64,000 nt of DNA from contig NZ_JAAQPI010000007.1 in assembly GCF_011683955.1 (NCBI RefSeq), forward strand, positions 186,001 to 250,000, read 5' to 3'. This document shows positions 37,084 to 58,712 of the stretch, one piece after another. Source of the DNA: Pseudomaricurvus alkylphenolicus (lineage in GTDB: Bacteria; Pseudomonadota; Gammaproteobacteria; Pseudomonadales; Cellvibrionaceae). Position 1 is the first letter of the stretch, and the number at the start of each line of letters is the position of its first letter. Under the pieces are notes generated by a model that saw only the letters and a list, made by a program, of their open reading frames with translations, was not told where the DNA came from and ran no database searches. Made by a program: the position numbers and the translations under genes.

Positions 37084-39288
37084 CTAGAACGCGTACTTGA
37101 TATCCACCCCGTAGGTGCGGGGCACGCCGCGCATAACCTGATCAGCGCCTATCAGGTCAGTGAGCTCGAACATATAAGCCGCATATTCCTTGTCGGCCAA
37201 GTTCTTGCCCCAGAGTGCCAATTCCAACTGCTCGCTGGAATCGGTCCAGGACAGACGCGCGTTCCAGAGACTGTAGCTGTCTTGCCCCAATTCTTTGTTT
37301 CGAGTGTAGCTGGTGGGATCACCTACGACGGCTACGGTACCGTTGGAATAGTAGACTTCGCTCTGGTAGGAGCCGTCTACCTGTGCCGAGAGGCTGCCGT
37401 TATCGCCCAGTGACCAGGTGTAGTGAGCCAGCAGGTTGGCGCTCCATTCCGGCGTGTTCTGAGGTGTAACGCCATTGAGATCCGCAGTAGCAACACCTGT
37501 GGCTGTTGGCACGGTCAAGTCGAATTCATCAAATTCGGAGTGAGTATAACCCAGCCCCACCTGAATAAAGAGAGCCTCCAGCGGCTGCCAGGTGACGTCC
37601 ATATCAAGGCCATATAGCTCAAGGGACTCGGCATTTTCAATCTGATTTTGTGGTAAACCCGTGTTCGGATCACCAATACTGTTAAACACTTGTGCGTCCT
37701 GATAGTCGTAGTAAAACAGGGCCGCGTTCAGTTGCATGGTGTCATCTAGCAGTGTGGATTTTATGCCAAGCTCGTAGGCCGTGAGAATCTCAGGGTCATA
37801 CTCGGCGTTGGCCGGGTAATTCGCCAGATCAGTCACCACCCCACCGTTAAAGCCACCGCCTTTGAATCCCCGAGTGATGGAGCCATAGAGCATGTGATCC
37901 TCATTGGGGTAGAAATTCAAGGCGACTTTGCCCGAAAATTCTTCATTGCGAAGATCGTCGGAGTAGCTCATGGAAGCCAGTAAGGGCGTAAATGCGAAGT
38001 TAGGCACATCCGTGGCATAATCGAAGTCCACCTCAAGCTGTGTGTAACGCGCCCCCACAGTCAATACCCAGGACTCCGCCAATTCGTATTCCATCTGGCC
38101 GAATAACGCCTGAGTCGTCAGTTGCTGATGGCCTTCGGACCGGGAAGTTCCCAAATTCAGTAAACCGGGAATCAAGGGAAGATCTGCGTTGTCCACCTCT
38201 ACATCCCAGTTAATGGTTTCAGACAGATAGTACAGACCCGCAATCCAGTGTAATTGGTCAGTATCGCCATTGAGCCGAAGCTCCTGAGTAAACGTATGAG
38301 TATCTACGCTGTACACAAACTCCACCAACGCCAGTGGTGTCATGTCTCCATCTTCTCCCTGGCGTTTATCCAGATCATCATAGGCCGTGATCGATGTAAG
38401 ACTGATTTGATCGTTCAGGTCATAGCTGACGTTTACCGAAACGCCTTTGGTATCAGTATTGATACGATACTCTTTATCGCCATGAACGCCCTCGTAAAAA
38501 TCGGAATCCAACGTAGTGCCGTACAGGTCGGAATCGCTGTCGTTGCGTGACGCATGAAGATTGAACAGGACTGACAGATCATCGGTTGGGAGATAGTTCA
38601 ACAACGCACGACCGGCAAAGTTCTGCTTCTCCACTCTATCGCCATTGCTGAGGTTCTCTATATAGCCGTCTGACTCATACCCGACCAGAGCCAAGCGTCC
38701 ATTTAGCGTTTCTGTCAAAGAGCCGGAGACCATGCTTTCGAGTTTGGTGTAACCATAGTTACCGGCACTGAGTTTCAGCGAGGCTTCGAATTCCTCCGTG
38801 GGCTTATTGGAAACAATATTCAGGGCACCACCAGTGGTGTTGCGACCAAACAGAGTCCCCTGCGGCCCCTTCAGAATCTCAACGCGTTCGATATCAAAGA
38901 GTGTGGTTAGCTGACCGTTGGACGAACCGATGGAGGCTTCGTCGATATAAAAACCTACCGGTCCGGTATTGTTCAACGCGAAATCATTCAGACCGATGCC
39001 GCGAATAAATACAGAAACCACCCCCCCTTCACCGGCTGGAGACATAATGTTCAAATTAGGGGTTTTGGCGGCGACCTCGTTGCTGTTGACAACGCCCATG
39101 GCCTCCATGGTTTCGCCGTCAAATGCACTAATGGCAATTCCCACCTCCTGCAAACTCTGCTCACGCTTTTGCGCAGTAATGACTATTTCTTCCAGGGTAA
39201 AAGCGCTGTCTGCCTGGGTTAAGGTCGCCTGCGAGGCCGTAGCCAGCGCGATAGCTGCAGCCAGCTGATGGCAAGAACGAAACTGCAT
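37084..39288 (-). CDS. TonB-dependent outer-membrane receptor 3
   Basis: This 734-residue receptor has a signal peptide ending near QATLTQADS, the TonB-box-like TLEEIVITAQKREQ, and the plug motif FDIERVEILKGPQGTLFGRN. It ends with a barrel of alternating aromatic strands and the terminal VDIKYAF. GAGGAGAG precedes the ATG. A 41-bp element 115 bases upstream is shared with the promoter of the transaminase/dehydrogenase operon starting at 45141. So this receptor most likely imports the compound that the operon degrades, under the AraC regulator encoded at 45268. Confidence 0.9.
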   Translation of the reverse strand: MQFRSCHQLAAAIALATASQATLTQADSAFTLEEIVITAQKREQSLQEVGIAISAFDGETMEAMGVVNSNEVAAKTPNLNIMSPAGEGGVVSVFIRGIGLNDFALNNTGPVGFYIDEASIGSSNGQLTTLFDIERVEILKGPQGTLFGRNTTGGALNIVSNKPTEEFEASLKLSAGNYGYTKLESMVSGSLTETLNGRLALVGYESDGYIENLSNGDRVEKQNFAGRALLNYLPTDDLSVLFNLHASRNDSDSDLYGTTLDSDFYEGVHGDKEYRINTDTKGVSVNVSYDLNDQISLTSITAYDDLDKRQGEDGDMTPLALVEFVYSVDTHTFTQELRLNGDTDQLHWIAGLYYLSETINWDVEVDNADLPLIPGLLNLGTSRSEGHQQLTTQALFGQMEYELAESWVLTVGARYTQLEVDFDYATDVPNFAFTPLLASMSYSDDLRNEEFSGKVALNFYPNEDHMLYGSITRGFKGGGFNGGVVTDLANYPANAEYDPEILTAYELGIKSTLLDDTMQLNAALFYYDYQDAQVFNSIGDPNTGLPQNQIENAESLELYGLDMDVTWQPLEALFIQVGLGYTHSEFDEFDLTVPTATGVATADLNGVTPQNTPEWSANLLAHYTWSLGDNGSLSAQVDGSYQSEVYYSNGTVAVVGDPTSYTRNKELGQDSYSLWNARLSWTDSSEQLELALWGKNLADKEYAAYMFELTDLIGADQVMRGVPRTYGVDIKYAF

Positions 39289-39450: not shown

Positions 39451-40440
39451 CTATTCGGCGATTACCACCGGAGTATCGAAGTCAACGCAAGTGCCCAACC
39501 ATCCCTGCCAGCGTTTCTGCCAGTACAGATTGTGAAGTTTGGTGGTTATCGCGCCCGGACCGACGGCGCCACCCAGCAGGGTGTCGTTAACGCTATTGAT
39601 GGGCATGATGCCGCCGGCGGTGGACGTCATAAATGCTTCGTCCGCGTGAATCAACTCGTCCTTGTGAACCCGCTGTACATGGACAGGAATATCCAGTTCA
39701 CGGGCCAGATCCAGCGTCGTCCGTCGCGTAATCCCTTCCAGGCAGCCGCTGTCCGGTGTATAGATTGCGCTGCCCTTAACCACAAAAATATTGGCTCCTG
39801 GAGCTTCGGCCAGATAACCTTCACTATCGAGTAAGACCGACCACTCTTTCTGGTTGTCACGGGCTTCAAACAAGGCCAGTTTCATATCCATCCAATGCAG
39901 ATTCTTGGCGGTGGGATCGACGGAATTCGGCGGTATGCGGATATAATTCTTACTGATCATTACATCCAGCCCTCGGGTTCTTTGTTCATCGCTGGCAATG
40001 TACATATAGGGAATCACAAACGCGTAAAAACAGTTCTCAAACGCGTCCGCATCGGAGCGATCACCACCGCTCATGATGCCACGGGTCACACACCACCAGA
40101 CGTAGGCCTCACGAGTACCAGCCAGCTTGACGAGATTGGTCAGGATCTCTGCCGTCTGCTGCTGGCTGTAAGGGTTGTTCAATCGAAACTTGGCGCAAGA
40201 GCTTTCGAAGCGATTGAGGTGGTCCTCCAGGCGGAAAAACTGCCCTTTGGAAACACTGACCACATCGTAAGCTGCATCGGCGTGCATAAAACCCATATCC
40301 ACGATAGGTATGGCTGCCTCGTGAACGCCGCAGTAAACGCCGTTGATAAAAGCACTGCCAAAGGCATAGTTGTCATCGTGAGCGAGACGCGCGTGGGTGG
40401 GTTCCTGGAGCATGATTTGCTCGGCTTGGATAATCGTCAT
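39451..40440 (-). CDS. Class IV PLP aminotransferase, resembling (R)-selective amine transaminases
   Basis: This 329-residue fold-type IV enzyme has the PLP-binding Lys at K179 (DPTAKNLHWMD), Glu at E212 (AEAPGANIF) and the phosphate-binding TSTAGGIMPI near residue 275. The active-site stretch H53-ADAA-Y58-DV-VSV and the following FFRLEDHLNRFESSC resemble the (R)-amine transaminases (ATA-117 type: H, Y, V in the same positions, as I recall) more than branched-chain or D-amino-acid enzymes. Branched-chain enzymes would show Y/F and G/R at these places. It is the last gene of the five-gene operon, 29 bases after the E2 gene. Activity on an amine or an amino acid cannot be decided from sequence alone. 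Confidence 0.82.
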   Translation of the reverse strand: MTIIQAEQIMLQEPTHARLAHDDNYAFGSAFINGVYCGVHEAAIPIVDMGFMHADAAYDVVSVSKGQFFRLEDHLNRFESSCAKFRLNNPYSQQQTAEILTNLVKLAGTREAYVWWCVTRGIMSGGDRSDADAFENCFYAFVIPYMYIASDEQRTRGLDVMISKNYIRIPPNSVDPTAKNLHWMDMKLALFEARDNQKEWSVLLDSEGYLAEAPGANIFVVKGSAIYTPDSGCLEGITRRTTLDLARELDIPVHVQRVHKDELIHADEAFMTSTAGGIMPINSVNDTLLGGAVGPGAITTKLHNLYWQKRWQGWLGTCVDFDTPVVIAE

Positions 40441-40469
40441 GGTGAATCCTTTATGAGTAAGTAGATGTA

Positions 40470-41822
40470 TCAGGCGAGCATCAAGGCCGGGGACTCGATC
40501 AGGCGCTTCAGTTCACGCATAAACTCTGCGGCCTGGGCACCGTCAATCACTCGATGGTCGGAGGAAAGCGACAGCGTCATGACCGTGGCCACCTGAATGT
40601 CGCCTTCTCTTACAACCGCCCGCTGTTCTCCACCGCCCACAGCAAGGATGGCGCCCTGGGGAGGATTGATAATCGCATCGAATTGGCGCACCCCATACAT
40701 TCCCAGGTTGGAAATGCAGAAGGTGCCGCCCTGAAATTCTTCGGCCGTCAGTTGCCCGGATTTTGCTCGGGCAGCGAGATCTCTCATTCGGTTTGATATT
40801 TCGCTCAAGGACTGTCGATTGGCCGTGTTAATGATAGGTGTTACCAACCCGCCCTCTATCGCTACTGCGACCGCTATATCCGCATTGGAGAACTGACGAA
40901 TCGTTTGACTGGCTTCATCGAACTGAATATTTAGCTCCGGCACTTTAATCAACGCACAGGCGCAAGCCTTGATCAGAAAATCGTTCACCGAGACGTTTGT
41001 CTCCGGGTTACTCTGATTAACCTGATTGCGAATGGCCAACAGAGCATCGAGTTCTGCATCCACTGTCACGCGAAAATGCGGTGCAGTTTGTTTGGAACTC
41101 TGCAGGCGGTCTGCGATGGTTCGACGCATGGCGTTCATGGGAATCGCTTTGAATTCGGAATTCCCCAATGGTTGAATGTTCGGCGTTTGAGCAACGCCTT
41201 GTTGTTCAATCCGGACCTTGGGTTCAACATTCGAATTCTCTTCGGCTTCGGGTGTTGCAGAATCCTCCGGATGATCATTTGTGGTTTTCTGAATACGCGC
41301 CCAAGCCGCTTCAACGTCCGCCTTGCCAACACGTCCGCCGCGACCGGTTGCCTGACATTCGTGTAGATTCACACCCAGCTCTCTGGCGAGGCGGCGAGCA
41401 ACCGGCGTGGTTTTTACATCGCTATCATCGAGTTCCTCGGGAGCTTCCAGGCTCGTTTCAGCCTGGTCAATTGCTACCTCCTTAGGAGCCGCGCTCGACT
41501 TGGCCATAACGTCGGTGCTGGCAACACCCTCAGGTACATAGTTGGCGATAAACGCCTCAACTTCATTATCGGGGACATCGTCGTCGGCCAATACCGCCAG
41601 CAGCGCAGCGATTTCCAGCGTTTCGCCGGGTTGGGCCACAATCCGCCTCAGCTTGCCAGAGACAATAGACTCGACGGTATTAACGATCTTGCTGGTTTCC
41701 ATATCGACAACTTCGTCACCGATCTGAATAACAGCGCCTTCTTCAACCAGCCACTGACTGACTGTGCCTTCGGTCATGGTCAGCCCCCACTTGGGGACAG
41801 TAATTGCTTCTATCGCACTCAT
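40470..41822 (-). CDS. Dihydrolipoamide acyltransferase (E2), acetoin-dehydrogenase-like
   Basis: This 450-residue E2 component has one N-terminal lipoyl domain (KWGLTMTEGTVSQWLVEEGA) with the lipoylated K45 in METSKI. A flexible linker leads to a peripheral-subunit-binding domain near residue 125-160 (TPVARRLARELGVNLHECQA). The C-terminal catalytic domain carries the HRVIDGAQAAEF motif with the active His. It transfers an acyl group from E1 to CoA. A single lipoyl domain and the KWGL-type start fit AcoC-like E2s. GGGAGG precedes the start, 12 bases after E1 beta. No E3 gene is present here. Confidence 0.88.
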   Translation of the reverse strand: MSAIEAITVPKWGLTMTEGTVSQWLVEEGAVIQIGDEVVDMETSKIVNTVESIVSGKLRRIVAQPGETLEIAALLAVLADDDVPDNEVEAFIANYVPEGVASTDVMAKSSAAPKEVAIDQAETSLEAPEELDDSDVKTTPVARRLARELGVNLHECQATGRGGRVGKADVEAAWARIQKTTNDHPEDSATPEAEENSNVEPKVRIEQQGVAQTPNIQPLGNSEFKAIPMNAMRRTIADRLQSSKQTAPHFRVTVDAELDALLAIRNQVNQSNPETNVSVNDFLIKACACALIKVPELNIQFDEASQTIRQFSNADIAVAVAIEGGLVTPIINTANRQSLSEISNRMRDLAARAKSGQLTAEEFQGGTFCISNLGMYGVRQFDAIINPPQGAILAVGGGEQRAVVREGDIQVATVMTLSLSSDHRVIDGAQAAEFMRELKRLIESPALMLA

Positions 41823-41834
41823 TTTCTACCTCCC

Positions 41835-42911
41835 TCAGGCCGCCGCACTCTTCGCCGCCATCACCGTGTCCATTGCGGTTTTGGCATCCAACCCCATGGT
41901 GACTTCGAGAACAGCCGCAGCAACGCGTTCACCACTGGGAATCCAAGCCTGCTCCAGCGGCGATGAAAACGGCACCGGAGTGTGCGGCGGAGTGACCAAC
42001 TTTATCGGCGCCTTCAAACAGTCAAACGCCTGGCTGGCCACCAGTGCCGCGATATCGTGAGCAAAACCACAACGGGCGCTCGACTCATCTACAACGATCA
42101 ATCGCCCGGTATTTTGTACGCTTTCCAGGATGGCTTCTTCATCCAGAGGCGAGGTCGTACGTGGATCAATCACATCACAACCGATACCCTGCTTGGCCAG
42201 CTCATCAGCGGCACCGGCCGCGAGATGAACCATCAGCCCCAGCGCTACGATCGTGACATCCTCACCTTCGCGAACAAAATTGGCTTCGCCAAACGGCACA
42301 GTGTAGCTTTCGTCCGGGACTTCGCTGGCTGCCAAGGGCAAATCGTAAAGCGCCTTGTGCTCGCAAAAGATAACCGGATCGTCATCCTGAATTGCCTGGA
42401 TCAGCAGGCCCTTGGCATCGTAGGCGTTGGAGGGCACCACGCATTTCATCCCGGGCAGTGAGGTAAACACGTGGTAAGGGCTCTGGGAATGCTGCGCAGA
42501 AGCGGAGGCGCCGGCACCAATCATGGTACGTACCGTTAGCGGCGTCACTGCTTTACCGCCAAACATATAACGGAATTTGGCCGCCTGGTTGTAGAGCATG
42601 TCCCAGCAGCATCCGTAAAAGTCCGAAAACATCAGCTCTGCAATTGGGCGCAATCCACTGGCAGCAGCACCCACCGCCATGCCCATATAGCCCATTTCAG
42701 AAATTGGCGTATCGATAATTCGATCAGCGCCAAACTCCTGAATCAGACCTTTGGAAATGCCCAACACACCGCCATAGGCATCAAGTTCGCCTTCACACCC
42801 CTGGCCACCGGCGACGTCTTCGCCAATCAAAATTACGTTGTTGTCGCGACGCATTTCCGCGCGCATCGCCTCACCAATGGCGGTGCGAATACTTTTTTCT
42901 GCCATGTTCAT
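41835..42911 (-). CDS. 2-oxoacid/acetoin dehydrogenase E1 beta subunit
   Basis: This subunit of about 358 residues is a transketolase-like E1 beta. It shows MRRDNNVILIGEDVAGGQG at the N-terminus, DTPISEMGYMGMAVGAAASG and PSNAYDAKGLLIQAI, plus the C-terminal domain with DPRTTSPLDEEAILESV. It pairs with E1 alpha to bind thiamine diphosphate at the dimer interface. The start at 42911 lies 11 bases after the E1 alpha stop and has GGGG just upstream; a frame to 42941 would overlap E1 alpha. Confidence 0.88.
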   Translation of the reverse strand: MNMAEKSIRTAIGEAMRAEMRRDNNVILIGEDVAGGQGCEGELDAYGGVLGISKGLIQEFGADRIIDTPISEMGYMGMAVGAAASGLRPIAELMFSDFYGCCWDMLYNQAAKFRYMFGGKAVTPLTVRTMIGAGASASAQHSQSPYHVFTSLPGMKCVVPSNAYDAKGLLIQAIQDDDPVIFCEHKALYDLPLAASEVPDESYTVPFGEANFVREGEDVTIVALGLMVHLAAGAADELAKQGIGCDVIDPRTTSPLDEEAILESVQNTGRLIVVDESSARCGFAHDIAALVASQAFDCLKAPIKLVTPPHTPVPFSSPLEQAWIPSGERVAAAVLEVTMGLDAKTAMDTVMAAKSAAA

Positions 42912-42921
42912 GTTCCCCCGT

Positions 42922-43890
42922 TTAATAGGTGATGTAGACATCTTCGGTCAGAGCTTCGGGCCGCGGCCAGGCGGCCTGCTTGGCCTCAGCCACATAGCCT
43001 TTGTAGGCGGCAACCAAATCGCTGTCGATACTGTCGAATTCCTCGGTGGTGGCCAGGCCCTCTTCAATCACCCTGCTGCGAAACTTCTTCAGACAATCGC
43101 GGTGCAGTTTGGCGTTGTCGATTTCCTCCTTGAGACGGTATTTCTGCGGATCACCTTCAAAGTGCCCGTAAAACCGCACAGTTTCTGCCTCAACGAAGTA
43201 AGGTCCATTGCCAGCCCGACAGTGGGCAACCACCTCTTCCATCGCGTCATAGACTGAAAAGAAATCGGTACCATCGATTTTTTTGGCGGGCATACCAAAC
43301 GCGGCAGCACGATCTGCGATAGAGTCAGCACCCACGGCGTAATCGACACCGGTACCCTCACCCACGCCGTTATTTTCGCAGTAGAAGATCACCGGCAGCT
43401 TCAGAATAACCGCCAGGTTCATCGCCTCGAAGACATAGCCCTCGTTACTGGCGCCATCACCAAAAAAGCACACCGACACATTGTCGCGCCCCTTCACTTT
43501 TTGAGTAAGTGCCGCGCCGGTAGCCAGTGGTGCACCGGCACCGACAATACCATTGGCACCGAGGCTGCCGCGATCCAGGTCGGCGATATGCATTGAGCCG
43601 CCCTTGCCGCCGCATAGCCCTTCGGCGCGGCCATAGAGCTCCATCACCATCAGCCGCGGGTCGGAGCCCTTGGCCACACAATGACCGTGTCCGCGGTGAT
43701 TGCTGGCGATATAGTCGTCATCGCTCAAGTGGGCGCAGACACCAACCGCGTTGGCTTCTTCTCCACAGTACAAATGCAGGAAACCGGGAATCTCGCCGGT
43801 GGTGTTTTCGCGGTGAATGGTTTCTTCAAACTCGCGGATATTACGCATCTTGCGGTAGTAATCGAGCAGTTGTTCTTTCGTCAGACTCAT
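42922..43890 (-). CDS. Thiamine-dependent E1 alpha subunit, AcoA-like
   Basis: This 322-residue subunit has the E1 alpha thiamine diphosphate motif GDGASNEGYVFEAMNLAVI followed by CENN, which fits the GDG-x25-NN rule. It also has NHRGHGHCVAKG and GKGGSMHIADLDRGSLGANG. Length and these motifs match the acetoin-dehydrogenase branch (AcoA) better than pyruvate or branched-chain enzymes. It decarboxylates or cleaves a 2-oxo or acyloin substrate and passes the acyl unit to E2. GGAG precedes the ATG, 18 bases after the transaminase. Confidence 0.88.
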   Translation of the reverse strand: MSLTKEQLLDYYRKMRNIREFEETIHRENTTGEIPGFLHLYCGEEANAVGVCAHLSDDDYIASNHRGHGHCVAKGSDPRLMVMELYGRAEGLCGGKGGSMHIADLDRGSLGANGIVGAGAPLATGAALTQKVKGRDNVSVCFFGDGASNEGYVFEAMNLAVILKLPVIFYCENNGVGEGTGVDYAVGADSIADRAAAFGMPAKKIDGTDFFSVYDAMEEVVAHCRAGNGPYFVEAETVRFYGHFEGDPQKYRLKEEIDNAKLHRDCLKKFRSRVIEEGLATTEEFDSIDSDLVAAYKGYVAEAKQAAWPRPEALTEDVYITY

Positions 43891-43908
43891 CGTTGTTTCT
43901 CCTTCCGA

Positions 43909-45141
43909 TTAACCGTCCCCAAATTCGCGTTTCAGCGCCTTAAAAGCTCCCTCAATGCGGTCAAGCGCCTCAACGATATCGGTGTCGTGCGCCGCACATA
44001 CAAACATGTTGTGTACCGGGTGCAGATAAACACCGTTTTTAACGGCTTCATTGCAGAAGCTGATACCCTTGGCAAACTCGGGGTCGTCCTTAAACAGAAA
44101 CAGAGGCATTTGCACGGGACCCGATTGCTCCAAAGCAAAGCCATAGCCGTGGGCCAGGTCTGCCAAGCCTTCGCGAAGCTGACGGCCGGCACTCTCCATT
44201 CGGGGAATTGCTTCCTCTTCTTCAATCGCTTCAATCGTTGCAAGTGAGGCAGCAAACGCTACCGATGAGAACCAATAGGAGCCTGTTGTAAAGCTCTCCG
44301 CCGCACCGCTGCGGAATTTGTTATTTCCGGTGACTGCCGAAAGCGCGTAGCCGTTGCCCAGGGTTTTTCCCATTGCACACAGATCCGGCAGTACGCCGAT
44401 GGTCTGCCAGGTACAGCCCAGCGAAAACCGGTAGGAGCAGCGTACATCGTCCAGAATCAGAGCGGCGCCTTTGTCATCGCAAAGCTGCCTCGCTTTTTGT
44501 GCAAACTCCTGCTTGACGATTTGCTGGGGCACCAGGACTTCGTGCATGTTGGGTGTCAGGATTATCCCGGCCAGATCGTCCCCGGCATCGGCTACCGCTT
44601 GCTCCAGGCTTGTTACATCGTTGTAGGTAAAAGTAATAATGTTCGCCCGGGCACCTTCGGTAATGCCGACCTTGGACCAGCTGCACCAGGGGTCCACACC
44701 GTGATAGGTGCCTTCCGCCATCAAGATGGTGTTGCGGCCGGTCTGAGCACGGGCGATCATCAGACAGATAGTCGTGGCATCGGAGCCGTTCTTGCAAAAC
44801 AGACTCCAATCCGCATGCTCACCTTTTTCAATCATTTTTTCGGCCAGCTCTACCATCACTGGCGAGGGGCCGGTGGTGCAATCGCCCTGCTCCATTTGCC
44901 TGCGCACCGCCGCCTCGACCTTGGGGTGCTTGTAGCCGAGAATATTGGGGCCATAGGCACACAAAAAATCGATATATTCGTAGCCGTCCACGCCCCACAA
45001 GCGGCCACCTTCAGCTTGGGCAATAAACTGCGGATAGTTATCCGGCAATACCTTAGTACTCATATGACCGTAAATTCCCGCCGGGAAAGCGGATTCCGCA
45101 CGCATTCTCAGCGCCTTATCTTTATCAAGCGTGTAAGCCAT
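43909..45141 (-). CDS. Class III PLP aminotransferase (glutamate-1-semialdehyde-aminomutase-like)
   Basis: This 410-residue fold-type I enzyme has PLP Lys K259 in AMGKTLGNGYALSAVTG, the PLP-pyridine Asp in ALILDDVRCSYR, SDATTICLMIARAQTGR and the EGTYHGV strand. It resembles GSA aminomutase and beta-amino-acid or amine transaminases of the same subgroup. A heme-pathway role is unlikely because it leads a catabolic operon. The start at 45141 is fixed by AGGAG; the frame to 45249 has none. It is the first gene of the operon and diverges from an AraC gene; a shared operator lies 70 bases upstream. Confidence 0.87.
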   Translation of the reverse strand: MAYTLDKDKALRMRAESAFPAGIYGHMSTKVLPDNYPQFIAQAEGGRLWGVDGYEYIDFLCAYGPNILGYKHPKVEAAVRRQMEQGDCTTGPSPVMVELAEKMIEKGEHADWSLFCKNGSDATTICLMIARAQTGRNTILMAEGTYHGVDPWCSWSKVGITEGARANIITFTYNDVTSLEQAVADAGDDLAGIILTPNMHEVLVPQQIVKQEFAQKARQLCDDKGAALILDDVRCSYRFSLGCTWQTIGVLPDLCAMGKTLGNGYALSAVTGNNKFRSGAAESFTTGSYWFSSVAFAASLATIEAIEEEEAIPRMESAGRQLREGLADLAHGYGFALEQSGPVQMPLFLFKDDPEFAKGISFCNEAVKNGVYLHPVHNMFVCAAHDTDIVEALDRIEGAFKALKREFGDG

Positions 45142-45210
45142 TTCGAACTCCTGTTTGTTATTCACTACCAGTAGGATATGGCTTACCTTATCTCGAACCC
45201 CGACGCACGA

Positions 45211-45251
45211 CTTGACCTTTGCGGCACGATAATTGACAATTTCGGCCAAGG
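45211..45251. promoter_or_regulatory. Shared AraC-type operator, copy 2 (transaminase operon promoter)
   Basis: TTGAC-N5-CGGC occurs at 45212-45225 and again at 45233-45246, a 21-bp period identical to copy 1 at 39403. Flanks also match. It is between the class III transaminase (start 45141, leftward) and the AraC gene (start about 45268, rightward), which supports autoregulated divergent control. Confidence 0.7.
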
Positions 45252-45267
45252 CGATTGCGGGGTCTAC

Positions 45268-46314
45268 ATGAAAAAGGGCGCTATGCAGAACAACACGTTA
45301 AAAGCAGTCCGTAGTGGCCTGCCGGCGGAATGGTTGCTGAGCGCCTTGTCAAAACGTGGTGTCGGCCGCGACGAAATCTGCCAGTCGCTGGGGCTCCAAG
45401 ACTCGATCTTCAACACGCCGGCCACAGTGCTGTCGCTCGAGATTTACAACCGACTCTTCGAGTGGGGAGCCGAGCGGGTTGGCGACAGCGCCTTGGGCAT
45501 TCATATGGCTGAAGAGGTTGAATTCCACCAATTTGGTTTGTTGGGTTATTTGAGCAGCAATGCCGCGACTCTAAGAGATTGGAGCGAATTAATAGAGCGG
45601 TATCACTGTATATTTTCTCCAGAATTCAGCATCACATTTCGGCATCAGGCGAAGACCTGCTATTGCGTGTATCAGGAAGCGAAACTCCCGGACAGCGACA
45701 CCCGTCAGGATATTGCTTTCAGCATGGCTCTGATGATACAGACGATTCGCAGAGTGCTGGAAATCGATTGGATACCGGAACGTTGCGACTTTACCTACTC
45801 GGCACCGCAAGATCTGGAGGAACACCATCGGTTTTTCGGCCCGAACCTGCACTTCGATCAAGCCCACAATACCATCAAGTTGGAAGAGGATTTATTGGAG
45901 ACTCCTGTGGCGACAGCGGATCCCAACCTGCTGCTTATCCTGAAGCAACAGGCTAACCAGCTGTTTGATCAGATTGCAGGCACGCAGGATTTGGTGCGGC
46001 ATGTACGCGTGTTGCTCACCACAGGTCTGGGCAACAAGGAGCTGACCACAGAAACCATGGCGCGGCAATTGAATATGTCTGTGCGGAATTTACACCGGCA
46101 GCTGCGTGAGAGAAATACATCTTTCAGTGAGCTGCGGGACGAGACTATATTGCAAGTCTCCAAGGAGGCGTTGCTGGAAACCGATGCCAGCATCACCGAT
46201 ATTGCCCTTAAGCTGGGTTACTCTGAGGCCAGTGCGTTTGTGAGAGTTTTTAAACGCCTGTCAGGTAGCAGCCCTTTGCAATTTCGTAAACACTCTTCGC
46301 AAAAAGCTCCTTAG
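45268..46314 (+). CDS. AraC-family regulator of the transaminase/dehydrogenase operon
   Basis: The product has about 348 residues. The N-terminal region is of the OruR/ArgR type (arabinose-binding-like), and the C-terminal DNA-binding domain is LTTETMARQLNMSVRNLHRQLRE, then ASITDIALKLGYSEASAFVRVFKR. The frame opens at 45178, but the operator at 45211-45251 would then be coding. ATG 45268 (after GCGGGG) or 45283 (after AAGGG) are therefore better starts. It is divergent from the operon and is the likely protein that binds the 41-bp elements at 39403 and 45211. Confidence 0.85.
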   Translation: MKKGAMQNNTLKAVRSGLPAEWLLSALSKRGVGRDEICQSLGLQDSIFNTPATVLSLEIYNRLFEWGAERVGDSALGIHMAEEVEFHQFGLLGYLSSNAATLRDWSELIERYHCIFSPEFSITFRHQAKTCYCVYQEAKLPDSDTRQDIAFSMALMIQTIRRVLEIDWIPERCDFTYSAPQDLEEHHRFFGPNLHFDQAHNTIKLEEDLLETPVATADPNLLLILKQQANQLFDQIAGTQDLVRHVRVLLTTGLGNKELTTETMARQLNMSVRNLHRQLRERNTSFSELRDETILQVSKEALLETDASITDIALKLGYSEASAFVRVFKRLSGSSPLQFRKHSSQKAP

Positions 46315-46809: not shown

Positions 46810-48141
46810 TCAAATCCGGCCGCTTCGCTTGAGCTCTAGATATTTATTTACCAAAGCAATATGCAGCTGCGAGGGCATATCATCGAGCACAATAGCGCCA
46901 GATGAGACCAGACGCTTCAAACTGGCCTGACGCTTGAGCTGAAAATCCAGGGCACTGGAGTAGCTCAGCGCCCCCATAAAATCCTTCACCGGCGTTTCCA
47001 GCTGCTGATCAATTACATATTCGCGAAGACACGCAAACATCACCAAGTGATTTCGGGACAAGAGCGCGTAGGCAGACAGCAGGTCTTCGTTGTCCTGACC
47101 ATTAACATTGGAAACGATGATGATCAGCGATCGCTTGCGATGCTTGTCCATCAGGTTTTGTGCCGCAGACAGGTAATCACTGGTGGCGACGCTACTGTGC
47201 AGATCATAAACCTGATGCAGCAGCGTGTTAAGGTTGTTTTTGCCCTTCACCGGATTCACCCATTTTTGGTCACTGCCGAAGATCTGGAGCCCTACGGCGT
47301 CACCTTGGCGCAGAGCCACATAGGCGGTCAGCAAAAACGCATTCAGGCAATGGTCAAAGTGGCTGAGTTCACCGTCTTTGGCACGCATGCGACGGCCGTT
47401 ATCGAGCAGGAAGATAATGTCCTGGTCCCGTTCATCCTGAAACTCGCGGGAAATGGGTTTGTGAGTTCGGGAGGTAGCCTTCCAGTCAACCTGCCGGAGT
47501 GAGTCGCCCGGACGGTACTCTCGCAACTGATGAAAATCCAGCCCCTCACCACGACGTTGGTTCAGATGGATTCCCAGTTGTCCCGCCTGCTGGCCGTGTG
47601 CCAACAATTCAAAGTTGGAAATGGCGGTAAAGTTGGGAAAGACCTTGACCACAACCGCTTCCAGAAAGGTTTCGCGCCTGGCCCATAAACCCCAGCGGGA
47701 TTCAATGAGTACATCCACGCCGCTGAAGTTGGTATCACCACGCCTCAAAGGATAGGCATGCGGTTTGACTTCAACGGTTTCTTCCGGTGCCAGGGTCAGA
47801 GCCAGTGGCAGACCTTCGATCTGCATATCGTCTTGCGTCAACTCGGTAACCCGTAGATTCACTGTATTGAGGGTGAGGTTACTCAACCGCAGTGTAAATT
47901 CATTGCGGGTGCCAACCGCCAACCCCTGAGGCAATTCTCGCTCAACATCAAGCGGCTGTGTCTTGCGCAGTACCAGTGCATCGATCGCGCCAACCACCAA
48001 CAAAACAGCCATCAACCACCACCAACCACTAGTAGCCTGCTCCAGGGATCCGGCCACAGAATAGGCCGTGAGCCCGCCCAGCAAAAGGGCGACAACCCAG
48101 CCGGCCAGCAACAGATACAGCAGTTTTTTGGTCGGCCTCAT
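46810..48141 (-). CDS. DUF58-domain protein
   Basis: This 443-residue protein has two N-terminal membrane segments (LLYLLLAGWVVALLLGGLTAY, then WWWLMAVLLVVGAIDAL). An extracytoplasmic-like beta domain and a DUF58 segment with REYRPGDSLRQVDWKATSR follow. A vWA-like fold (IIFLLDNGRRMRAKDGELSHFD) completes the protein. DUF58 proteins are regularly partnered with MoxR ATPases; their biochemical function is not settled. Its start overlaps the MoxR stop by 4 bases, indicating coupling. It is the last gene of the seven-gene operon. Confidence 0.85.
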   Translation of the reverse strand: MRPTKKLLYLLLAGWVVALLLGGLTAYSVAGSLEQATSGWWWLMAVLLVVGAIDALVLRKTQPLDVERELPQGLAVGTRNEFTLRLSNLTLNTVNLRVTELTQDDMQIEGLPLALTLAPEETVEVKPHAYPLRRGDTNFSGVDVLIESRWGLWARRETFLEAVVVKVFPNFTAISNFELLAHGQQAGQLGIHLNQRRGEGLDFHQLREYRPGDSLRQVDWKATSRTHKPISREFQDERDQDIIFLLDNGRRMRAKDGELSHFDHCLNAFLLTAYVALRQGDAVGLQIFGSDQKWVNPVKGKNNLNTLLHQVYDLHSSVATSDYLSAAQNLMDKHRKRSLIIIVSNVNGQDNEDLLSAYALLSRNHLVMFACLREYVIDQQLETPVKDFMGALSYSSALDFQLKRQASLKRLVSSGAIVLDDMPSQLHIALVNKYLELKRSGRI

Positions 48142-49130
48142 AGGCGTGGCGCTTCGATTTTGTCCAACAGATTATGCAGCATTTCATCTGCGGTGACGCC
48201 ATCAATTTCGGCATCCGCAGCCAGGGTGATTCTATGGCGCATCACAGCAACCGCCACCGCCTTGATATCGTCCGGCAGCACAAACTCCCGCCCCTGTAGC
48301 ACCGCATTGACCCGTGCGCAGCGCACCAGCGCAATAGAAGCACGGGGGCCAGCGCCCTGGCGAATAGCCGTGTTTTCACGGGTGGCGCGCACCAGACGAA
48401 CCGCATAATCGACCACTTGCTCATCCAGTGTCACCTGGTTGATCGTATTTTGAAGCAGCTGAAATTGTTCGGTATTCAGCAACTGCGCGCCATTACCACT
48501 GTCGGGATCGTCGCTGGTGGTTTGGGTGATCATACGGGTCAGTTGCACTTCGTCGCTCTCATTGGGGTAATCGATGAGCACTTTCATCAGAAAACGGTCC
48601 AGCTCCGCCTCAGGCAACGGATAGGTTCCCTCTTGTTCCAGGGGATTCTGGGTTGCCAATACCATAAAGGGCAAGGGCACTGCCTGGCTCTTGCCTTCAA
48701 TCGTCACCCGTCTCTCCTGCATAACCTCCAACAGCGCCGCTTGGGTTTTGGCAGGCGCGCGATTGATTTCATCCGCCAACAGCAAATTGGTAAACACCGG
48801 ACCCTGGCGCACCCGAAACTTGCCCTCTTTCATGTCGAACAGCGCATGACCGGTGATGTCGGAGGGCATAAGATCCGGGGTAAACTGAATGCGTTTGAAG
48901 GTCCCGCCAAAGGTCTGGGCCAATACCCGCACCAACAACGTTTTGCCCAAACCGGGCACCCCTTCGAGCAGAACATGGCCACCTGCAAACATGGCGATCA
49001 GTACTTGCTCCACCACGGCCTGTTGCCCGATAAGTGACTTTCCGATCTGCTGAGTGAGTTTTTCCAGCAGCTCACTGGCCTCGGCAAAACTCGGCTCGGT
49101 AACCGAGCCCGGTGTGCTCATGTCGTTCAT
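48138..49130 (-). CDS. MoxR-family AAA+ ATPase
   Basis: This 330-residue ATPase has Walker A GVPGLGKTLLV (about residues 58-68), Walker B LLADEINRAP, sensor 1 LATQNPLEQEGTYPLPEAEL and the arginine-finger region LDRFLMK. MoxR proteins act as chaperone-like ATPases that help mature or activate partner enzymes, working with vWA/DUF58 proteins. It overlaps both neighbours by 4 bases (DUF4350 before, DUF58 after). Confidence 0.92.
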   Translation of the reverse strand: MNDMSTPGSVTEPSFAEASELLEKLTQQIGKSLIGQQAVVEQVLIAMFAGGHVLLEGVPGLGKTLLVRVLAQTFGGTFKRIQFTPDLMPSDITGHALFDMKEGKFRVRQGPVFTNLLLADEINRAPAKTQAALLEVMQERRVTIEGKSQAVPLPFMVLATQNPLEQEGTYPLPEAELDRFLMKVLIDYPNESDEVQLTRMITQTTSDDPDSGNGAQLLNTEQFQLLQNTINQVTLDEQVVDYAVRLVRATRENTAIRQGAGPRASIALVRCARVNAVLQGREFVLPDDIKAVAVAVMRHRITLAADAEIDGVTADEMLHNLLDKIEAPRL

Positions 49131-50506
49131 AGTGATTTCCTTAGGATTTGCAGTGCTTTCACCAGATTCAGGTATTGGGTTTCCTGAAAATTGATCTTGC
49201 TGTTCATGGCACTGTCGATAGTAATGGCGGGCAGTACACCGAGCGAAGCCAGGTTGCGGGTTTGCTCCGCCCGGTTGAGATTGGGAAAGTCCGGCCAGCG
49301 CCGGTGCGCACGGCGCTGAATATCCTCACGCATATGCGCTACCAGACCTTCATCGTCTTTGATCTTCCAGCGGTACTGGGCCAGCGCTGAAAAGTTTTGA
49401 TGGCGGGAGCGACGCACGGCATCGCTCGCCCCCTGCACTGGACCAAAGCGTCGACCGAAGTAGAACAAGGCGCTAATGATCAGCATGGCACTGGCAACCA
49501 GCGCTTCGAAAAAATAACGATAAATCAGCGTGCCCAGGGAGGGCATGTCTTTGCCGTACAGAATCAGTACGTCGCTGTCTTCATGCACAAAGATATCCAG
49601 TAAATAAGCATGGTCGAAGTGGCCGATGCGGTAATTGTTCCAGATATTGGTGCTGCTCATTACCGTGATCAGCCCCTGACCGTATTCGAGTTGGGCGAAG
49701 TGTACGCCCCGTCCATCTCCCGTCCAGTACACCAGTTCATTGGTCTCTGGCTCCTCTTCCGATATCTCCGGGTGATCCAGTACCTGGCTGCCCCAGAAAT
49801 GGGCCTTTAATTCTGCGTCTATACCATCAAAAGTCAGAACGGTGGTCTGACGTTCAGTAATTTCAGGTTCAGATCTTGGCTCGCACTGATTGAGTACCGT
49901 CGCACAGCGCGGCACATCCGGCCCGGCATCGGCAGGGTTTTGCTTTTGTTCAGCGCGGCGTTTGCGAATGCGTTCGTTCTCCTCCCGGAGTCGCTCTGCC
50001 AGGGACTTTTCTTTATCCTCGGTACGGTCTTTGTCTTTTTCCTGTTGTGGCGTTTCTTCGTCGCCGTGGCCCCTGACCTCAACACGATTATCAATGAAGG
50101 CTTCTTCATGCTCGTCGTCCTGAACATCACCAAAGGTGGTACTGAAACCCAAATCGGACACCAGGGTGTCGGGGTCGCCTTCATCAGCACCGATAATGAG
50201 TACTCCGCCTTCTTGAACCCATTGCAGAAGACGGCTTTTCTGTCGGTCAAAATTCAAGTGGCTGGCCTCGGATACCAACATCACGGAATAGCCGCTGAAA
50301 TCTTCATCCCGCTCTACTTTCGGGGCACTGGTAACACGGTGAACCCGAGTTTGCAGATACTGTTCCGCTGCCAGATAAGGGTTACGCAGTGCTTCCACAC
50401 TCCAACCCTTGTTGATGAGTTCATTGTAAAATTCGAGATTGCGATAAATCAGCCAGCCGCTTCCAACGACCAGCAACACCACCAGGCAGATTAGCAATCT
50501 AGGCAT
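49127..50506 (-). CDS. DUF4350-domain membrane protein
   Basis: This 459-residue protein has an N-terminal membrane segment (LLICLVVLLVVGSGWLIY) and a DUF4350 domain (YLAAEQYLQTRVHRVTSAPK, and WVQEGGVLIIGADEGDP). A charged Lys/Glu-rich insertion at about residues 150-200 and a second membrane segment (ALVASAMLIISALFYFG) follow. The function is unknown; the domain is found only in MoxR/DUF58 operons. The start at 50506 overlaps the DUF4129 gene by 8 bases and is chosen over an upstream frame because the membrane segment begins there. Confidence 0.78.
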   Translation of the reverse strand: MPRLLICLVVLLVVGSGWLIYRNLEFYNELINKGWSVEALRNPYLAAEQYLQTRVHRVTSAPKVERDEDFSGYSVMLVSEASHLNFDRQKSRLLQWVQEGGVLIIGADEGDPDTLVSDLGFSTTFGDVQDDEHEEAFIDNRVEVRGHGDEETPQQEKDKDRTEDKEKSLAERLREENERIRKRRAEQKQNPADAGPDVPRCATVLNQCEPRSEPEITERQTTVLTFDGIDAELKAHFWGSQVLDHPEISEEEPETNELVYWTGDGRGVHFAQLEYGQGLITVMSSTNIWNNYRIGHFDHAYLLDIFVHEDSDVLILYGKDMPSLGTLIYRYFFEALVASAMLIISALFYFGRRFGPVQGASDAVRRSRHQNFSALAQYRWKIKDDEGLVAHMREDIQRRAHRRWPDFPNLNRAEQTRNLASLGVLPAITIDSAMNSKINFQETQYLNLVKALQILRKSL

Positions 50507-52055
50507 GGCGGAAAGCCTCCGTCCAGCCTTCGCACAGCGACTGGAACTGTTCCTGCTGGCAATCTTTGTGGGCATAGGCGATAGACAGCCACTGGCGGGT
50601 AAGCGCCTGAAAGTAACCGGCAATTTTCTGAATATCGCCCCCTGAAGGATCAACCAAACCGGCTTGATTCACAATCTGAGCGCATTCCAGTTCCGTATGC
50701 CCTTCCTGAAAAGGACAGCGATGGTCATGAATCAATTTGATGATCGATGAGCGTAGCAGTATTCCGATGGCCTGGCGCTGTTGACCGGATTGCCACTGCG
50801 ACTGCGCTGCAGCGATAACATCTTTGGGTAAGCTGTCTTTGGTCACGTCCAGCCCGAACAGTACCTCCGGAGGCTCTACATCCAGGTGACCCTGATCTCT
50901 ATCACTGCCCATAAATTGCCGCAGTTGCTGCCGATACCGGTACAGCACGTAGATCACAATACTGATGAACGATATCCAAAGCAGAAATTCGAGAATGGAT
51001 GCACCTGATCGGAAAAAGTCTGCCAATGCCGAGAAGAAGCCGCCGTGTTTGTCCAACCATTCGGCGAATTCGATCAACCAGTCCGGTATTGTGGCTTCTT
51101 CTTCATCTTGCTTGTCCTTAAAGCGCCAGCCTTCTTCGGTTTCAATGCGGCGAAAATCTTCTCCCTCCAGCACCGCTTGAATATCTGCCTTGGCCCTTGT
51201 CTGTGCCGATGGGAACGCGCTTTCATCCTGCGCGTAGGCGATGTTAGTATCAAGGACGCCCATCAGCACGGCCAGTCCCAGACCGATGACGGCCAGACGA
51301 GGGCGCCCACCGCCGGCACTGCTGCGCCGCTTGGCCAGTTGACGGAAGTTGATTTCAATGTCCCAGCCTTCCAGATCGATCCGCCGTTGCAGATACAGGA
51401 AGAATCCACAGCAGACGTAAAAAGGCGCTATCAAAGCCATGGTCAGCACCCAGAAGGTGTTGTACAGATGCGAGCTCAGGGTCTCCTGCTCTGTCACCAG
51501 CTCGTTCCAGTTCAATTCCACACCCTGAGGCAACAAAAAGTACAACCCGGTTAGAAACCCGAACAGCAAGAAGCCTTCGATATGAAACAAGGTAATCAGC
51601 AACCAGGAGGCGCCGCTGCTAAAGCGTCGATGCAATAAACCAAGTCGCTTTTGTCGCTCCTTACCCTTTAGCCCTTCCAGCAAGGTCACCGGCATATCGA
51701 AGGCCCGGTAGATGGAGAATCGACGCAAACTGAGCCATAGAAACCAATCGGTTTTGATCATACTGAGGTATTGGCGAACCACCTGACGCGGACTGACTTG
51801 CTCATCAAATAACTGGCGGCTGGCGATAAACAGGATAGGGCGCTCCCACAGCGGTTTACACCACCAGATAATGAAAATCGAGATCCAGGTGCTGTCCCAG
51901 AAGAAAAGCAACAAGACACTATAGACCAATACAGCCGGCACCGCCCAAGCCACCAGCAACTTGAAATACCATGCCCGGGCCATCACGATACCCAGATCAA
52001 TAGCCTGCCATTCGCTGCGGGGCCGGGCAATCGCTTTAAACTCACTCAGCTGCAT
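50499..52055 (-). CDS. DUF4129-domain membrane protein
   Basis: This 518-residue protein has about five membrane segments, a middle soluble segment (SAFPSAQTRAKADIQAVLEGED), and a C-terminal DUF4129 domain near residues 400-518 (DVTKDSLPKDVIAAAQSQWQ, GILLRSSIIKLIHDHR). Function unknown. It overlaps SpoIIM by 14 bases and DUF4350 by 8, so these proteins are probably made in fixed ratio and act together in the membrane. Confidence 0.78.
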   Translation of the reverse strand: MQLSEFKAIARPRSEWQAIDLGIVMARAWYFKLLVAWAVPAVLVYSVLLLFFWDSTWISIFIIWWCKPLWERPILFIASRQLFDEQVSPRQVVRQYLSMIKTDWFLWLSLRRFSIYRAFDMPVTLLEGLKGKERQKRLGLLHRRFSSGASWLLITLFHIEGFLLFGFLTGLYFLLPQGVELNWNELVTEQETLSSHLYNTFWVLTMALIAPFYVCCGFFLYLQRRIDLEGWDIEINFRQLAKRRSSAGGGRPRLAVIGLGLAVLMGVLDTNIAYAQDESAFPSAQTRAKADIQAVLEGEDFRRIETEEGWRFKDKQDEEEATIPDWLIEFAEWLDKHGGFFSALADFFRSGASILEFLLWISFISIVIYVLYRYRQQLRQFMGSDRDQGHLDVEPPEVLFGLDVTKDSLPKDVIAAAQSQWQSGQQRQAIGILLRSSIIKLIHDHRCPFQEGHTELECAQIVNQAGLVDPSGGDIQKIAGYFQALTRQWLSIAYAHKDCQQEQFQSLCEGWTEAFRHA

Positions 52056-53004
52056 TGCGAGAGCGCCCCGAGAACAGAATGTAGATGATAGTCAGTGCCC
52101 AAAAACCGGCACCCACGGAGTATTTGACTGAAATGGGCAGAGTCGAACTTGAGGACCAGAAAGCCTCGATAAATGCCGCCAATAACAACATCGCAGTGGT
52201 GCCATACACCATAATCACCGCATCCTTCGCCGCCAGTTTAAGTGCCATGAGACGCTTGTAGGGACCAGGGCTGATCAGCGCCCAGCCCAGTTTCAGTCCG
52301 GCAGCGCCGCTAAAGGCGATGGCGGTCAGTTCGAAAGCACCATGCCCCACCACAAACGGGAAGAAGGTGTCGGTGTAACCCACTTGAGTGATATGGCCGG
52401 CGGCGGCACCAATAAAAATGCCGTTGTAAATCAGAAAGAACAAACTGCCCAAACCAAAGAAGATGCCGCTGGCAAAGGTTTGAAAGCTGATGCCGATATT
52501 GTTGTAGATGTAAAAACAAAACATTTTCAGATCGGTATCCGACTCACGTGTTCTGCCCAAGGCCCGCGAACCGGGATCATACATGCGCTCGAAATCCCTG
52601 ACCTGGTCATAGGACATCAGGCTGTAGATCAACTCGTCGGACGTCAGGCATAAAAAGAAGAAGATAAAGCCAGGAATAAAAAACAATGCCAGCCCGGCCC
52701 AAACGAAAGGTGCGTTGCTGCGAATTGCCCGTGGAAACCCCACATAGCATTGATAGAAAAAGTTGGCCCGAAAACGGGGCAGGTCACCGTAGAACCGTTT
52801 GTGCCCCTCGACTACCAAATGATTCAGTCGGTGAATCAGGTTGGTGCTATAGCGGCGCTGCTTTGAGATGGCCAAGTGGTGGCTCACTACCTGATAAAGA
52901 TCCGGAAGGCGCTTGCGATCCAGGGTTTTATCATCGCCTTTCAGTAATTTACTGAATTCATCCCACAGGGGTTGGTGCTGTTGTTCAAAGTCGTTTTGTT
53001 TCAT
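52042..53004 (-). CDS. SpoIIM-like membrane protein
   Basis: This 320-residue protein has a charged N-terminal domain and about five membrane segments typical of the SpoIIM/DUF95 family, including IFIGAAAGHITQVGYTD and FVVGHGAFELTAIAFSGAAGL with the family's HG-xE pattern. In bacilli SpoIIM works in engulfment; in Gram-negatives it accompanies MoxR/DUF58 genes. It is placed 3 bases after the RDD gene. Confidence 0.85.
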   Translation of the reverse strand: MKQNDFEQQHQPLWDEFSKLLKGDDKTLDRKRLPDLYQVVSHHLAISKQRRYSTNLIHRLNHLVVEGHKRFYGDLPRFRANFFYQCYVGFPRAIRSNAPFVWAGLALFFIPGFIFFFLCLTSDELIYSLMSYDQVRDFERMYDPGSRALGRTRESDTDLKMFCFYIYNNIGISFQTFASGIFFGLGSLFFLIYNGIFIGAAAGHITQVGYTDTFFPFVVGHGAFELTAIAFSGAAGLKLGWALISPGPYKRLMALKLAAKDAVIMVYGTTAMLLLAAFIEAFWSSSSTLPISVKYSVGAGFWALTIIYILFSGRSRNAAE

Positions 53005-56079: not shown

Positions 56080-56204
56080 AATTGGACCCTTATATATTCC
56101 AAAAGCGGATCTTTTCTATAGGTCCATTTAATTTAGACTGATTTCTACCGGATCACAATCCAACTGATAAATACACACAGTCGACACTTGACGAGGAATC
56201 ACCC

Positions 56205-56660
56205 ATGACCATTGCCATCCGTTCCCTGACCGCAAACGATTATGCTCAGTGGGCCCCTTTGTTTGAGGGCTATTGCGCATTCTACGAGCAAGACTGCGAT
56301 ACCCAGAAAAAAGAAACCATGTGGGGCTGGCTGCAGGACCCTGAGCACATGCTCGAAGGGGTAGTCGCCGAAGATGAAAACGGTAACCTGCTGGGGTTGG
56401 CCCATTTTCATGAGTGGCCCATCAGCATCTACGGTTGTAACAGTTGTTATCTAAGTGACCTGTTTGTGAGCCCGGCTGCACGGGGCAAGAGCGTTGGAGA
56501 AACACTGTACCGCTGGTTGATGGGCGAGAGCGCTGAGCGCGGCTGGCCAGTGCTGACACTGTTAACCCAGGACGGCAACCGCGTGGCTCGTGGGCTCTAT
56601 GACAAATATGGTGAGAAATCGGAGTTCGGGTTTTACATCACTCCAACCGTTGCTGATTAA
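56205..56660 (+). CDS. GNAT-family N-acetyltransferase
   Basis: This 151-residue protein has the GNAT core: the beta-4 strand LGLAHFHEWP, the acetyl-CoA pyrophosphate loop LFVSPAARGKSVGETLYRWL, and the end segment LTLLTQDGNRVARGLYDKYG. It transfers an acetyl group to an unknown amine substrate in the cytosol. Divergent from the MocR gene, which is its most likely regulator. The ribosome-binding site (GACGAGGAATCACC) is good. Confidence 0.88.
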   Translation: MTIAIRSLTANDYAQWAPLFEGYCAFYEQDCDTQKKETMWGWLQDPEHMLEGVVAEDENGNLLGLAHFHEWPISIYGCNSCYLSDLFVSPAARGKSVGETLYRWLMGESAERGWPVLTLLTQDGNRVARGLYDKYGEKSEFGFYITPTVAD

Positions 56661-56705
56661 TTCTGGCGGGCATTGCAGCAGCAGGCTCAGAGAGCCTGCC
56701 CTTTA

Positions 56706-57467: not shown

Positions 57468-57482
57468 CGCTGTTACCTCTTA

Positions 57483-58676: not shown

Positions 58677-58712
58677 AAATAGATCCTTGGTGTGTCCAGG
58701 CAAAAACTGTCA

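Follow-up and report, generated by a model that had tools for sequence, protein, structure and literature searches.

The operon at positions 39451–45141 of a 64-kb window of Pseudomaricurvus alkylphenolicus DNA (contig NZ_JAAQPI010000007.1; the window is the whole stretch that was analysed, 64,000 nucleotides) raises the question of why two transaminases of different folds should bracket the E1 and E2 components of an acetoin-dehydrogenase-type complex. From sequence comparisons, the operon is proposed, with a probability of roughly 0.6, to serve the catabolism of an amino alcohol through an acyloin. Five complete open reading frames (ORFs), all on the minus strand, are co-directional and tightly packed, with intergenic gaps by ORF ends of 18, -20, 12 and 29 bp. 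A preliminary description of this DNA had listed the same five genes, with two transaminase folds and an AcoABC-like set, and all five ORFs were found and their families confirmed with Pfam. What it had not mentioned is that the class III enzyme resembles the fumonisin-degrading transaminase FumI and that a co-directional TonB-dependent receptor gene follows the operon.

When compared with the PDB, the class III enzyme finds the aminopentol aminotransferase FumI (6HBS) at 416.6 bits, the next protein scoring 154. The two enzymes are 46% identical over 403 aligned residues, with Lys259 and Asp231 kept; catalytic lysines are found in both transaminases of the operon. In the class III tree (58 rows; two short rows, L071 and L078, were dropped), FumI and the window enzyme lie in a clade of 50 rows with a support of 100/99. 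A gene from a metagenome-assembled genome (L054, 77% identical) is the sister of the window gene (100/100), and the pair joins a subclade of sequences from the same genome and its relatives (100/99); the window enzyme's own subclade comprises eight rows. As outlined in one report, FumI removes the 2-amino group from hydrolysed fumonisin B1, with pyruvate as the acceptor, and yields a 3-hydroxy-2-ketone (PMC2933618), and another describes three more fumonisin-active transaminases with 61–74% identity to known ones (PMC9858248). By its placement with FumI, the class III enzyme is proposed to be a transaminase for a 2-amino-3-hydroxy compound and pyruvate, giving a 3-hydroxy-2-ketone. A glutamate-semialdehyde aminomutase or acetylornithine reading of this enzyme was set aside since the PDB comparison puts it with FumI; the 25 NCBIfam matches listed of 65 all lie far under their cut-offs. 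Genes of this kind are rare in the genomes sampled. At E <= 1e-90, FumI-like genes are present in 4 of 144 genomes of the family and 5 of 390 in a sample of the order, the own genome being counted in both, and in 1 of 369 in a sample of the class, namely the own genome only.

The complex itself can be placed separately. In a 20-row tree, E1 alpha groups with seven aco-type loci (97/96) and with six of them (99/96), and is separate from the pyruvate dehydrogenase (PDH) and branched-chain dehydrogenase (BCDH) references and from the fused rhizobial E1; two rows of this tree, the E1 of L161 being one of them, are unsafe long branches. E1 beta groups with the beta subunits of Acinetobacter and Klebsiella aco operons at 99/99 in a 16-row tree, with a top identity of 67%. 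The window matches 9 of 10 acetoin-specific columns of E1 alpha, whose residues are common to all five acetoin references used and to none of nine other sequences, and scores under the PDH equivalog cut-off (335 vs 393.85 bits). A pyruvate or branched-chain dehydrogenase reading of E1 is unsupported by either tree, and the acetoin-dehydrogenase type assigned to the three genes in the preliminary description agrees with the clustering of both E1 subunits with aco-operon E1. The E2 is 52% identical over 328 residues to the E2 of the Acinetobacter aco operon and 45% over 502 to that of Klebsiella, and has ETSK as its lipoyl-lysine motif as well as the DHRxxDG motif of E2 proteins. The best 40 plasmid relatives of E1 alpha are 56–59% identical; in seven aco-type plasmid loci that were read (one at 50%), lpdA is present in three and a butanediol dehydrogenase in three.

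Among the operon genes, Pfam identified neither an E3, as had been said before, nor an acetoin or butanediol dehydrogenase. The accompanying idea that E3 is borrowed from elsewhere is favored by the presence of candidates in the genome, and the sharing itself may be presumed. Four matches to TIGR01350 exceed the cut-off; one of them is fused to a VTT domain, leaving three ordinary E3 candidates. The fused protein, encoded within the window at 19325–21529, combines a VTT (DedA-type) membrane domain with a pyridine-nucleotide disulphide oxidoreductase that is over the lipoamide dehydrogenase cut-off.

The pairing of such transaminases with E1 recurs. A FumI-like gene, a class IV gene, a fused E1 alpha-beta gene and AcoC are found together in five loci, four on rhizobial plasmids (Shinella twice, Sinorhizobium and Agrobacterium; L141–L144) and one in Rhodobacter kunshanensis (L058). 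These modules also contain a DUF1537 kinase, a class II aldolase, an acyl-CoA dehydrogenase and a peptide-type binding protein; L142 is unannotated and its genes were read by homology. The AcoC of L141 is over the NCBIfam acetoin cut-off (373.6 vs 307), and the L141 class IV gene is 0.027 changes per column from PDB 6XU3, presented in one article as an (R)-amine transaminase from Shinella (PMC10671532). Since the FumI-like genes and the E1 of these five loci fall in other clades than those of the window, the pairing was apparently assembled more than once. In Ochrobactrum quorumnocens (L174), a single run holds a fused E1, E2, ATP-binding cassette (ABC) uptake genes and a class IV gene from the same clade as that of the window; by eye, the ABC system was read as polyamine-type. 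On contig C11 of the own genome (L171, 6642–13082), an omega-type transaminase (under its NCBIfam cut-off, 598 vs 618), E2, E3, E1 alpha and E1 beta run in one direction and the E1 falls in the window's E1 clade; this locus is also a candidate E3 source. A fused E1, AcoC and a class IV gene adjoin in Rhizobium sp. SSA_523 (L175), where a FumI-like match lies on the same replicon about 1.2 Mb from the module. The combination of transaminase and E1 thus exists in public plasmid records. It is one of known enzyme kinds, and no description of it was found in the open-licence literature, covered mainly through titles and abstracts; the preliminary description likewise knew of no described cluster with this gene order.

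The likeness of the class IV enzyme to (R)-amine transaminases, also pointed out earlier, holds in that its best PDB matches are the amine transaminases 8zm7 (243 bits) and 4cmd (239 bits). In the numbering of NfTA, His53, Tyr58, Val60, Lys179 and Trp183 are conserved, residues that form a motif of (R)-amine transaminases. Glu115 and Arg126, presumably characteristic of the fungal enzymes, are not kept; there is Trp at 115, Asp at 126 and Arg at 127. The Shinella enzyme 6XU3 too departs at 115, with Met. In an 11-row tree, the class IV enzyme falls outside the clade of characterised (R)-amine transaminases and within a supported separate group, together with the own copy on contig C11 and sequences from Burkholderia and Ochrobactrum. 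Because Glu115 and Arg126 are not kept, the enzyme is treated as working like an (R)-amine transaminase and not as a canonical member, and it may deaminate the other C2 epimer of the substrate. (R)-Amine transaminases are in wide use as biocatalysts; a brief search of the open-licence literature found no statement of their physiological role. At E <= 1e-95, the own genome has two class IV genes this close and no other genome among the 390 of the order sample has one. The second copy (53% identical; contig C11, L172:5550-8636) adjoins a flavin-adenine-dinucleotide-dependent oxidoreductase weakly similar to PigB, and aldehyde dehydrogenase genes flank the two. A Pseudomonas aeruginosa plasmid (L168:9816-16219) contains a short class IV gene, 67% identical to that of the window over the first 181 residues, near a Tn3-family transposase, a phytanoyl-CoA dioxygenase and fatty-acid genes.

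Thus, the family of the class III transaminase and the family of E1 point independently to an acyloin intermediate. In the proposed pathway, a vicinal amino alcohol R-CHOH-CH(NH2)-CH3 would lose its 2-amino group to pyruvate through the FumI-like enzyme, with the acyloin R-CHOH-CO-CH3 remaining, and the class IV enzyme would perform the same step on the other C2 epimer or on a related amine. The thiamine diphosphate (ThDP) enzyme E1 would attack the ketone and cleave the C2–C3 bond with release of the aldehyde R-CHO, after which the acetyl group would pass to lipoyl-E2 and on to acetyl-CoA, an E3 from another locus serving the complex. In ordinary aco operons, dehydrogenases supply acyloins from diols; here, transaminases would supply them from amino alcohols. 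The preliminary description had offered this order of events, from amino alcohol to acyloin to acetoin-type cleavage, with aminobutanol as an example. The FumI clade, the acetoin-type E1 clade and the recurrence of the pairing favor the general route, with aminobutanol as one possible substrate.

A comparison within the family suggests how such an operon may have arisen. At E <= 1e-85, an acetoin-type E1 alpha is present in 12 of 144 family genomes, at 13 loci. Around the 11 loci of other family genomes, taken with about 8 kb on each side, none of five transaminase queries (FumI-like, three class IV and omega-type, so that other transaminase kinds would be missed) found a homologue at E <= 1e-10, and an lpdA homologue lies beside E1/E2 in 10 of the 11. 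The nearest of these loci (G147) has an E1 alpha and an E1 beta that are 72% and 75% identical to those of the window, followed downstream by E3, a zinc alcohol dehydrogenase-like gene and two short-chain dehydrogenases, as read by homology and by eye. The operon may represent a G147-like arrangement in which transaminases took the place of the dehydrogenases and E3 was dropped. In the G147 locus (L191:11384-12904), the E2 frame stops at 12679 and the homology continues to 12904, either from a frame break or an assembly error.

Neighborhoods of related class III genes were compared over 57 loci, each holding a class III gene with an identity of at least about 39%. The counts are descriptive since the neighborhood queries were taken from counted loci and L031–L033, L141–L149 and L154–L158 were picked; in addition, 11 loci have less than 4 kb of sequence on one side, seven fall outside the FumI clade, and the class III proteins of L053 and L157 are identical. 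A kinase and an aldolase lie near 16 loci, E1 near six and a split transketolase near two, with any of these partners at 19, and amidase-like genes near 15. The notion that every FumI-like gene has a C–C lyase partner was consequently rejected. A class IV gene is found in all six E1 loci and in none other of the 57, five of the six being one lineage. Within the own genome, a second FumI-like gene (63% identical; contig C3, L031:7240-10212) forms a run with a PfkB-type kinase and a fuculose-phosphate-aldolase-like class II aldolase, both under curated cut-offs, and the FumI-like genes of four more genomes (G011, G030, G086 and G296) also adjoin a PfkB-type kinase, on the other strand in G086, and an aldolase of the same kind. 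A kinase and an aldolase would offer a different way of cleaving hydroxy-ketones. In a scan of genomes that gave 80 loci, the kinase and aldolase lie near 5 of the 38 at >=39% identity and 0 of the 42 below. At two loci in relatives (L032:4641-19563 and L033:6531-17867), a GPH-type transporter, a GH88/105-like gene and a gene for a large protein of unknown kind stand next to the kinase, aldolase and FumI-like genes; these neighbors, named by eye, suggest a glycan context. Transketolase-like genes are found within 9 kb of more distant class III genes from several phyla (L070, L073, L099, L103, L111 and L112), a broader association of aminotransferases with transketolases. E1, transketolase and class II aldolase all use alpha-hydroxy-ketones (the aldolase, their phosphorylated forms), consistent with a 2-amino-3-hydroxy compound as the substrate of the transaminase.

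Several observations weigh against the acyloin pathway. The identity to FumI is only 46%, the exact five-gene order is present in no other genome or record searched, and L054, the nearest class III relative, is without an E1 nearby. In 38 of the 57 loci, L054 among them, there is no kinase and aldolase, transketolase or E1 within 9 kb, and the Rhizobium module has neither a FumI-like gene nor a class II aldolase within the 20 kb fetched. The genome scan placed a split transketolase near 6 of the 42 loci below 39% identity and 1 of the 38 above, making the transketolase association unspecific. With respect to E1, two operons of the window's E1 clade, from Sphingobium (L140) and Novosphingobium (L165), lie among acyl-CoA genes without lpdA or butanediol dehydrogenase, and the E1 of L161, annotated as an acetoin:DCPIP oxidoreductase, falls outside the clade on a long branch. 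With the sphingomonad operons inside and L161 outside, membership in the E1 clade is no proof of acetoin as the substrate.

The many related class III genes without a C–C lyase neighbor would be understandable if the operon combined two separate tasks, an ordinary acetoin dehydrogenase and transaminases for simple amines whose ketones are not substrates of the complex; furthermore, E1 beta is 67% identical to the subunit of an apparently genuine acetoin operon. However, the complex is flanked on both sides by the transaminases and no gap exceeds 29 bp, the pairing recurs with another E1 lineage as well, and the product of FumI is itself an acyloin. A division of tasks is therefore considered unlikely. 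It is less likely still that an unusual amino acid or a D-amino acid is converted to a 2-oxo acid and decarboxylated by E1/E2 in the manner of a pyruvate or branched-chain complex. The class IV family does include D-amino-acid and branched-chain transaminases, to which the window enzyme has NCBIfam matches far below cut-off, and the E1 is of the same superfamily as PDH and BCDH E1. Against this, E1 alpha and beta cluster with support away from the PDH and BCDH references, the class IV enzyme is closest to amine transaminases, and FumI, the closest protein to the class III enzyme, acts on a compound free of carboxylate.

The kinase and class II aldolase beside sister FumI-like genes are apt for a phosphorylated 1-hydroxy ketone and, together with split transketolase partners in L060 and L146, bring to mind a sphinganine-like 2-amino-1,3-diol, which would be transaminated to a 1,3-dihydroxy-2-ketone from which E1 transfers a glycoloyl instead of an acetyl group. 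Since the E1 is acetoin-type, suited to the methyl ketone side, with a weak transketolase match, and since the kinase and aldolase queries found no homologue up to 9 kb from the operon, this variant is judged to be as improbable as the amino-acid route. Transaminases are reversible, and prodigiosin-type routes presumably combine a ThDP enzyme and a transaminase as well; thus, the operon might conceivably run in the biosynthetic direction and aminate acyloins into amino alcohols. A lipoyl-E2 complex oxidises to acyl-CoA in a catabolic sense, a TonB receptor adjoins the operon and ABC uptake genes adjoin other loci, all of which make biosynthesis the least probable of the explanations.

With amino-alcohol catabolism as the preferred reading, the form of the substrate can be narrowed. 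Because E1 enzymes of acetoin type take substrates of the form CH3-CO-CHOH-R, the matching amine is expected to be CH3-CH(NH2)-CHOH-R. This structure occurs in nature in 1-deoxysphinganine (spisulosine), in xestoaminol and in the backbone of the fumonisins; the 1-deoxysphingoid bases are without the 1-hydroxyl required by the route through sphingosine kinase and sphingosine-1-phosphate lyase. The known substrate of FumI is a long-chain aminopentol. According to the summary in one paper, 1-deoxysphingolipids have been found in fungi, bivalves and sponges, and in animals the 1-deoxysphingoid bases, for example synthetic Enigmol, escape phosphorylation and degradation (PMC4505451). Their natural occurrence and the nearby TonB receptor make a sphingoid-like substrate attractive, if speculative; the substrate may also be short, as in the case of 3-amino-2-butanol. 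A bolder proposal, held only tentatively and on balance doubtful, is that this is a bacterial route for 1-deoxysphingoid bases and similar 2-amino-3-alkanols, in which transamination at C2 is followed by cleavage of the acetoin type and yields acetyl-CoA together with a long-chain aldehyde; the natural role of (R)-amine transaminases would then be to act on whichever C2 epimer is not accepted by the FumI-type enzyme. If the amino-alcohol reading is right, a general way to degrade a vicinal amino alcohol would be to transaminate it and then split the hydroxy-ketone, (R)-amine transaminases would gain a natural setting, and the genes may serve as a source of enzymes for fumonisin-like and 1-deoxysphingoid compounds.

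The features of the operon and its flanking genes are presented in Table 1.

Table 1. Genes of the predicted amino-alcohol operon and its flanks (window coordinates)
Feature	Coordinates	Strand	Family evidence
Class III (fold type I) aminotransferase, FumI clade	43909..45141	-	PF00202, 137 bits
E1 alpha, acetoin-dehydrogenase type	42922..43890	-	PF00676, 280 bits
E1 beta, acetoin-dehydrogenase type	41835..42941	-	PF02779 + PF02780
E2	40470..41822	-	one lipoyl PF00364, E3-binding PF02817, acyltransferase PF00198
Class IV (fold type IV) aminotransferase, (R)-amine-transaminase-like	39451..40440	-	PF01063, 174 bits
TonB-dependent receptor, possible uptake gene	37084..39288	-	PF00593, PF07715
AraC-type regulator, divergent, start uncertain	45178..46314	+	PF12625, PF12833

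Translation of E1 beta probably begins at 42911 or 42905, which are its second and third in-frame ATG codons, behind a GGGGG stretch; these starts would give a gap of 10 or 16 bp between E1 alpha and E1 beta and no overlap. The TonB receptor gene lies 162 bp downstream of the class IV gene in the same direction, and a consensus scan found no terminator-like site between the two; the receptor may be a further member of the operon. The divergent AraC-type gene, upstream of the operon, is its probable regulator, and a 45% homologue of it is divergent to the 77%-identical aminotransferase gene in L054. The same scan found six promoter-like sites against 7.5 expected, which is at chance level. Terminator-like sites numbered 18 where 9.7 were expected, and several lay within operon genes; no conclusion was drawn from either count.

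Other parts of the window contain genes of possible interest. Between 22930 and 29282, an AraC-type regulator is divergent from a TonB receptor, a protein resembling penicillin V acylase and choloylglycine hydrolase, and an amidohydrolase. The penicillin-V-acylase-like gene occupies 24621–25940, with its real start probably inside the ORF. This amide-degradation-like cluster might release amines for the operon; however, the gene has no homologue in the related loci tested (E <= 1e-20), and a link to the operon, unsupported by those loci, was left as a lead. At 46810–53004, there are a DUF58-like protein and a MoxR-type ATPase, both recognized by eye, with DUF4350 and SpoIIM-domain proteins. 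At 54592–62713, a GntR-aminotransferase fusion regulator lies near a cluster of short-chain dehydrogenase/reductase, thiolase, AMP-binding, DUF5938 and acyl-CoA dehydrogenase genes.

Compared to FumI of Sphingopyxis sp. MTA144 (6HBS), known from fumonisin degradation, the window enzyme belongs to the same clade and has the same catalytic residues; unlike FumI, it shares its operon with E1, E2 and a class IV transaminase. The fum cluster presumably includes an acetolactate-synthase-like ThDP gene. A Pfam scan of 27 proteins of the window, out of 51 ORFs called, matched no esterase family like that of FumD. Like acoABC with lpdA, the operon encodes both E1 subunits and an E2 of that type, arranged A-B-C, but it has transaminases and is without E3, acetoin reductase and butanediol dehydrogenase. 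In O. quorumnocens, the class IV gene, which belongs to the same clade as the window's, stands together with E1/E2, as here, although the E1 is fused, uptake is of the ABC kind and no FumI-like gene is present in the 20 kb fetched. The operons of the Shinella 6XU3 type on rhizobial plasmids have features of their own, namely the fused E1, a hydrolase-fold AcoC, the DUF1537 kinase, the class II aldolase, the acyl-CoA dehydrogenase and the peptide-type binding protein, and their class IV enzyme is of another clade than that of the window. Nevertheless, they place a class IV gene beside a FumI-like class III gene, E1 and AcoC, just as the operon described here does.

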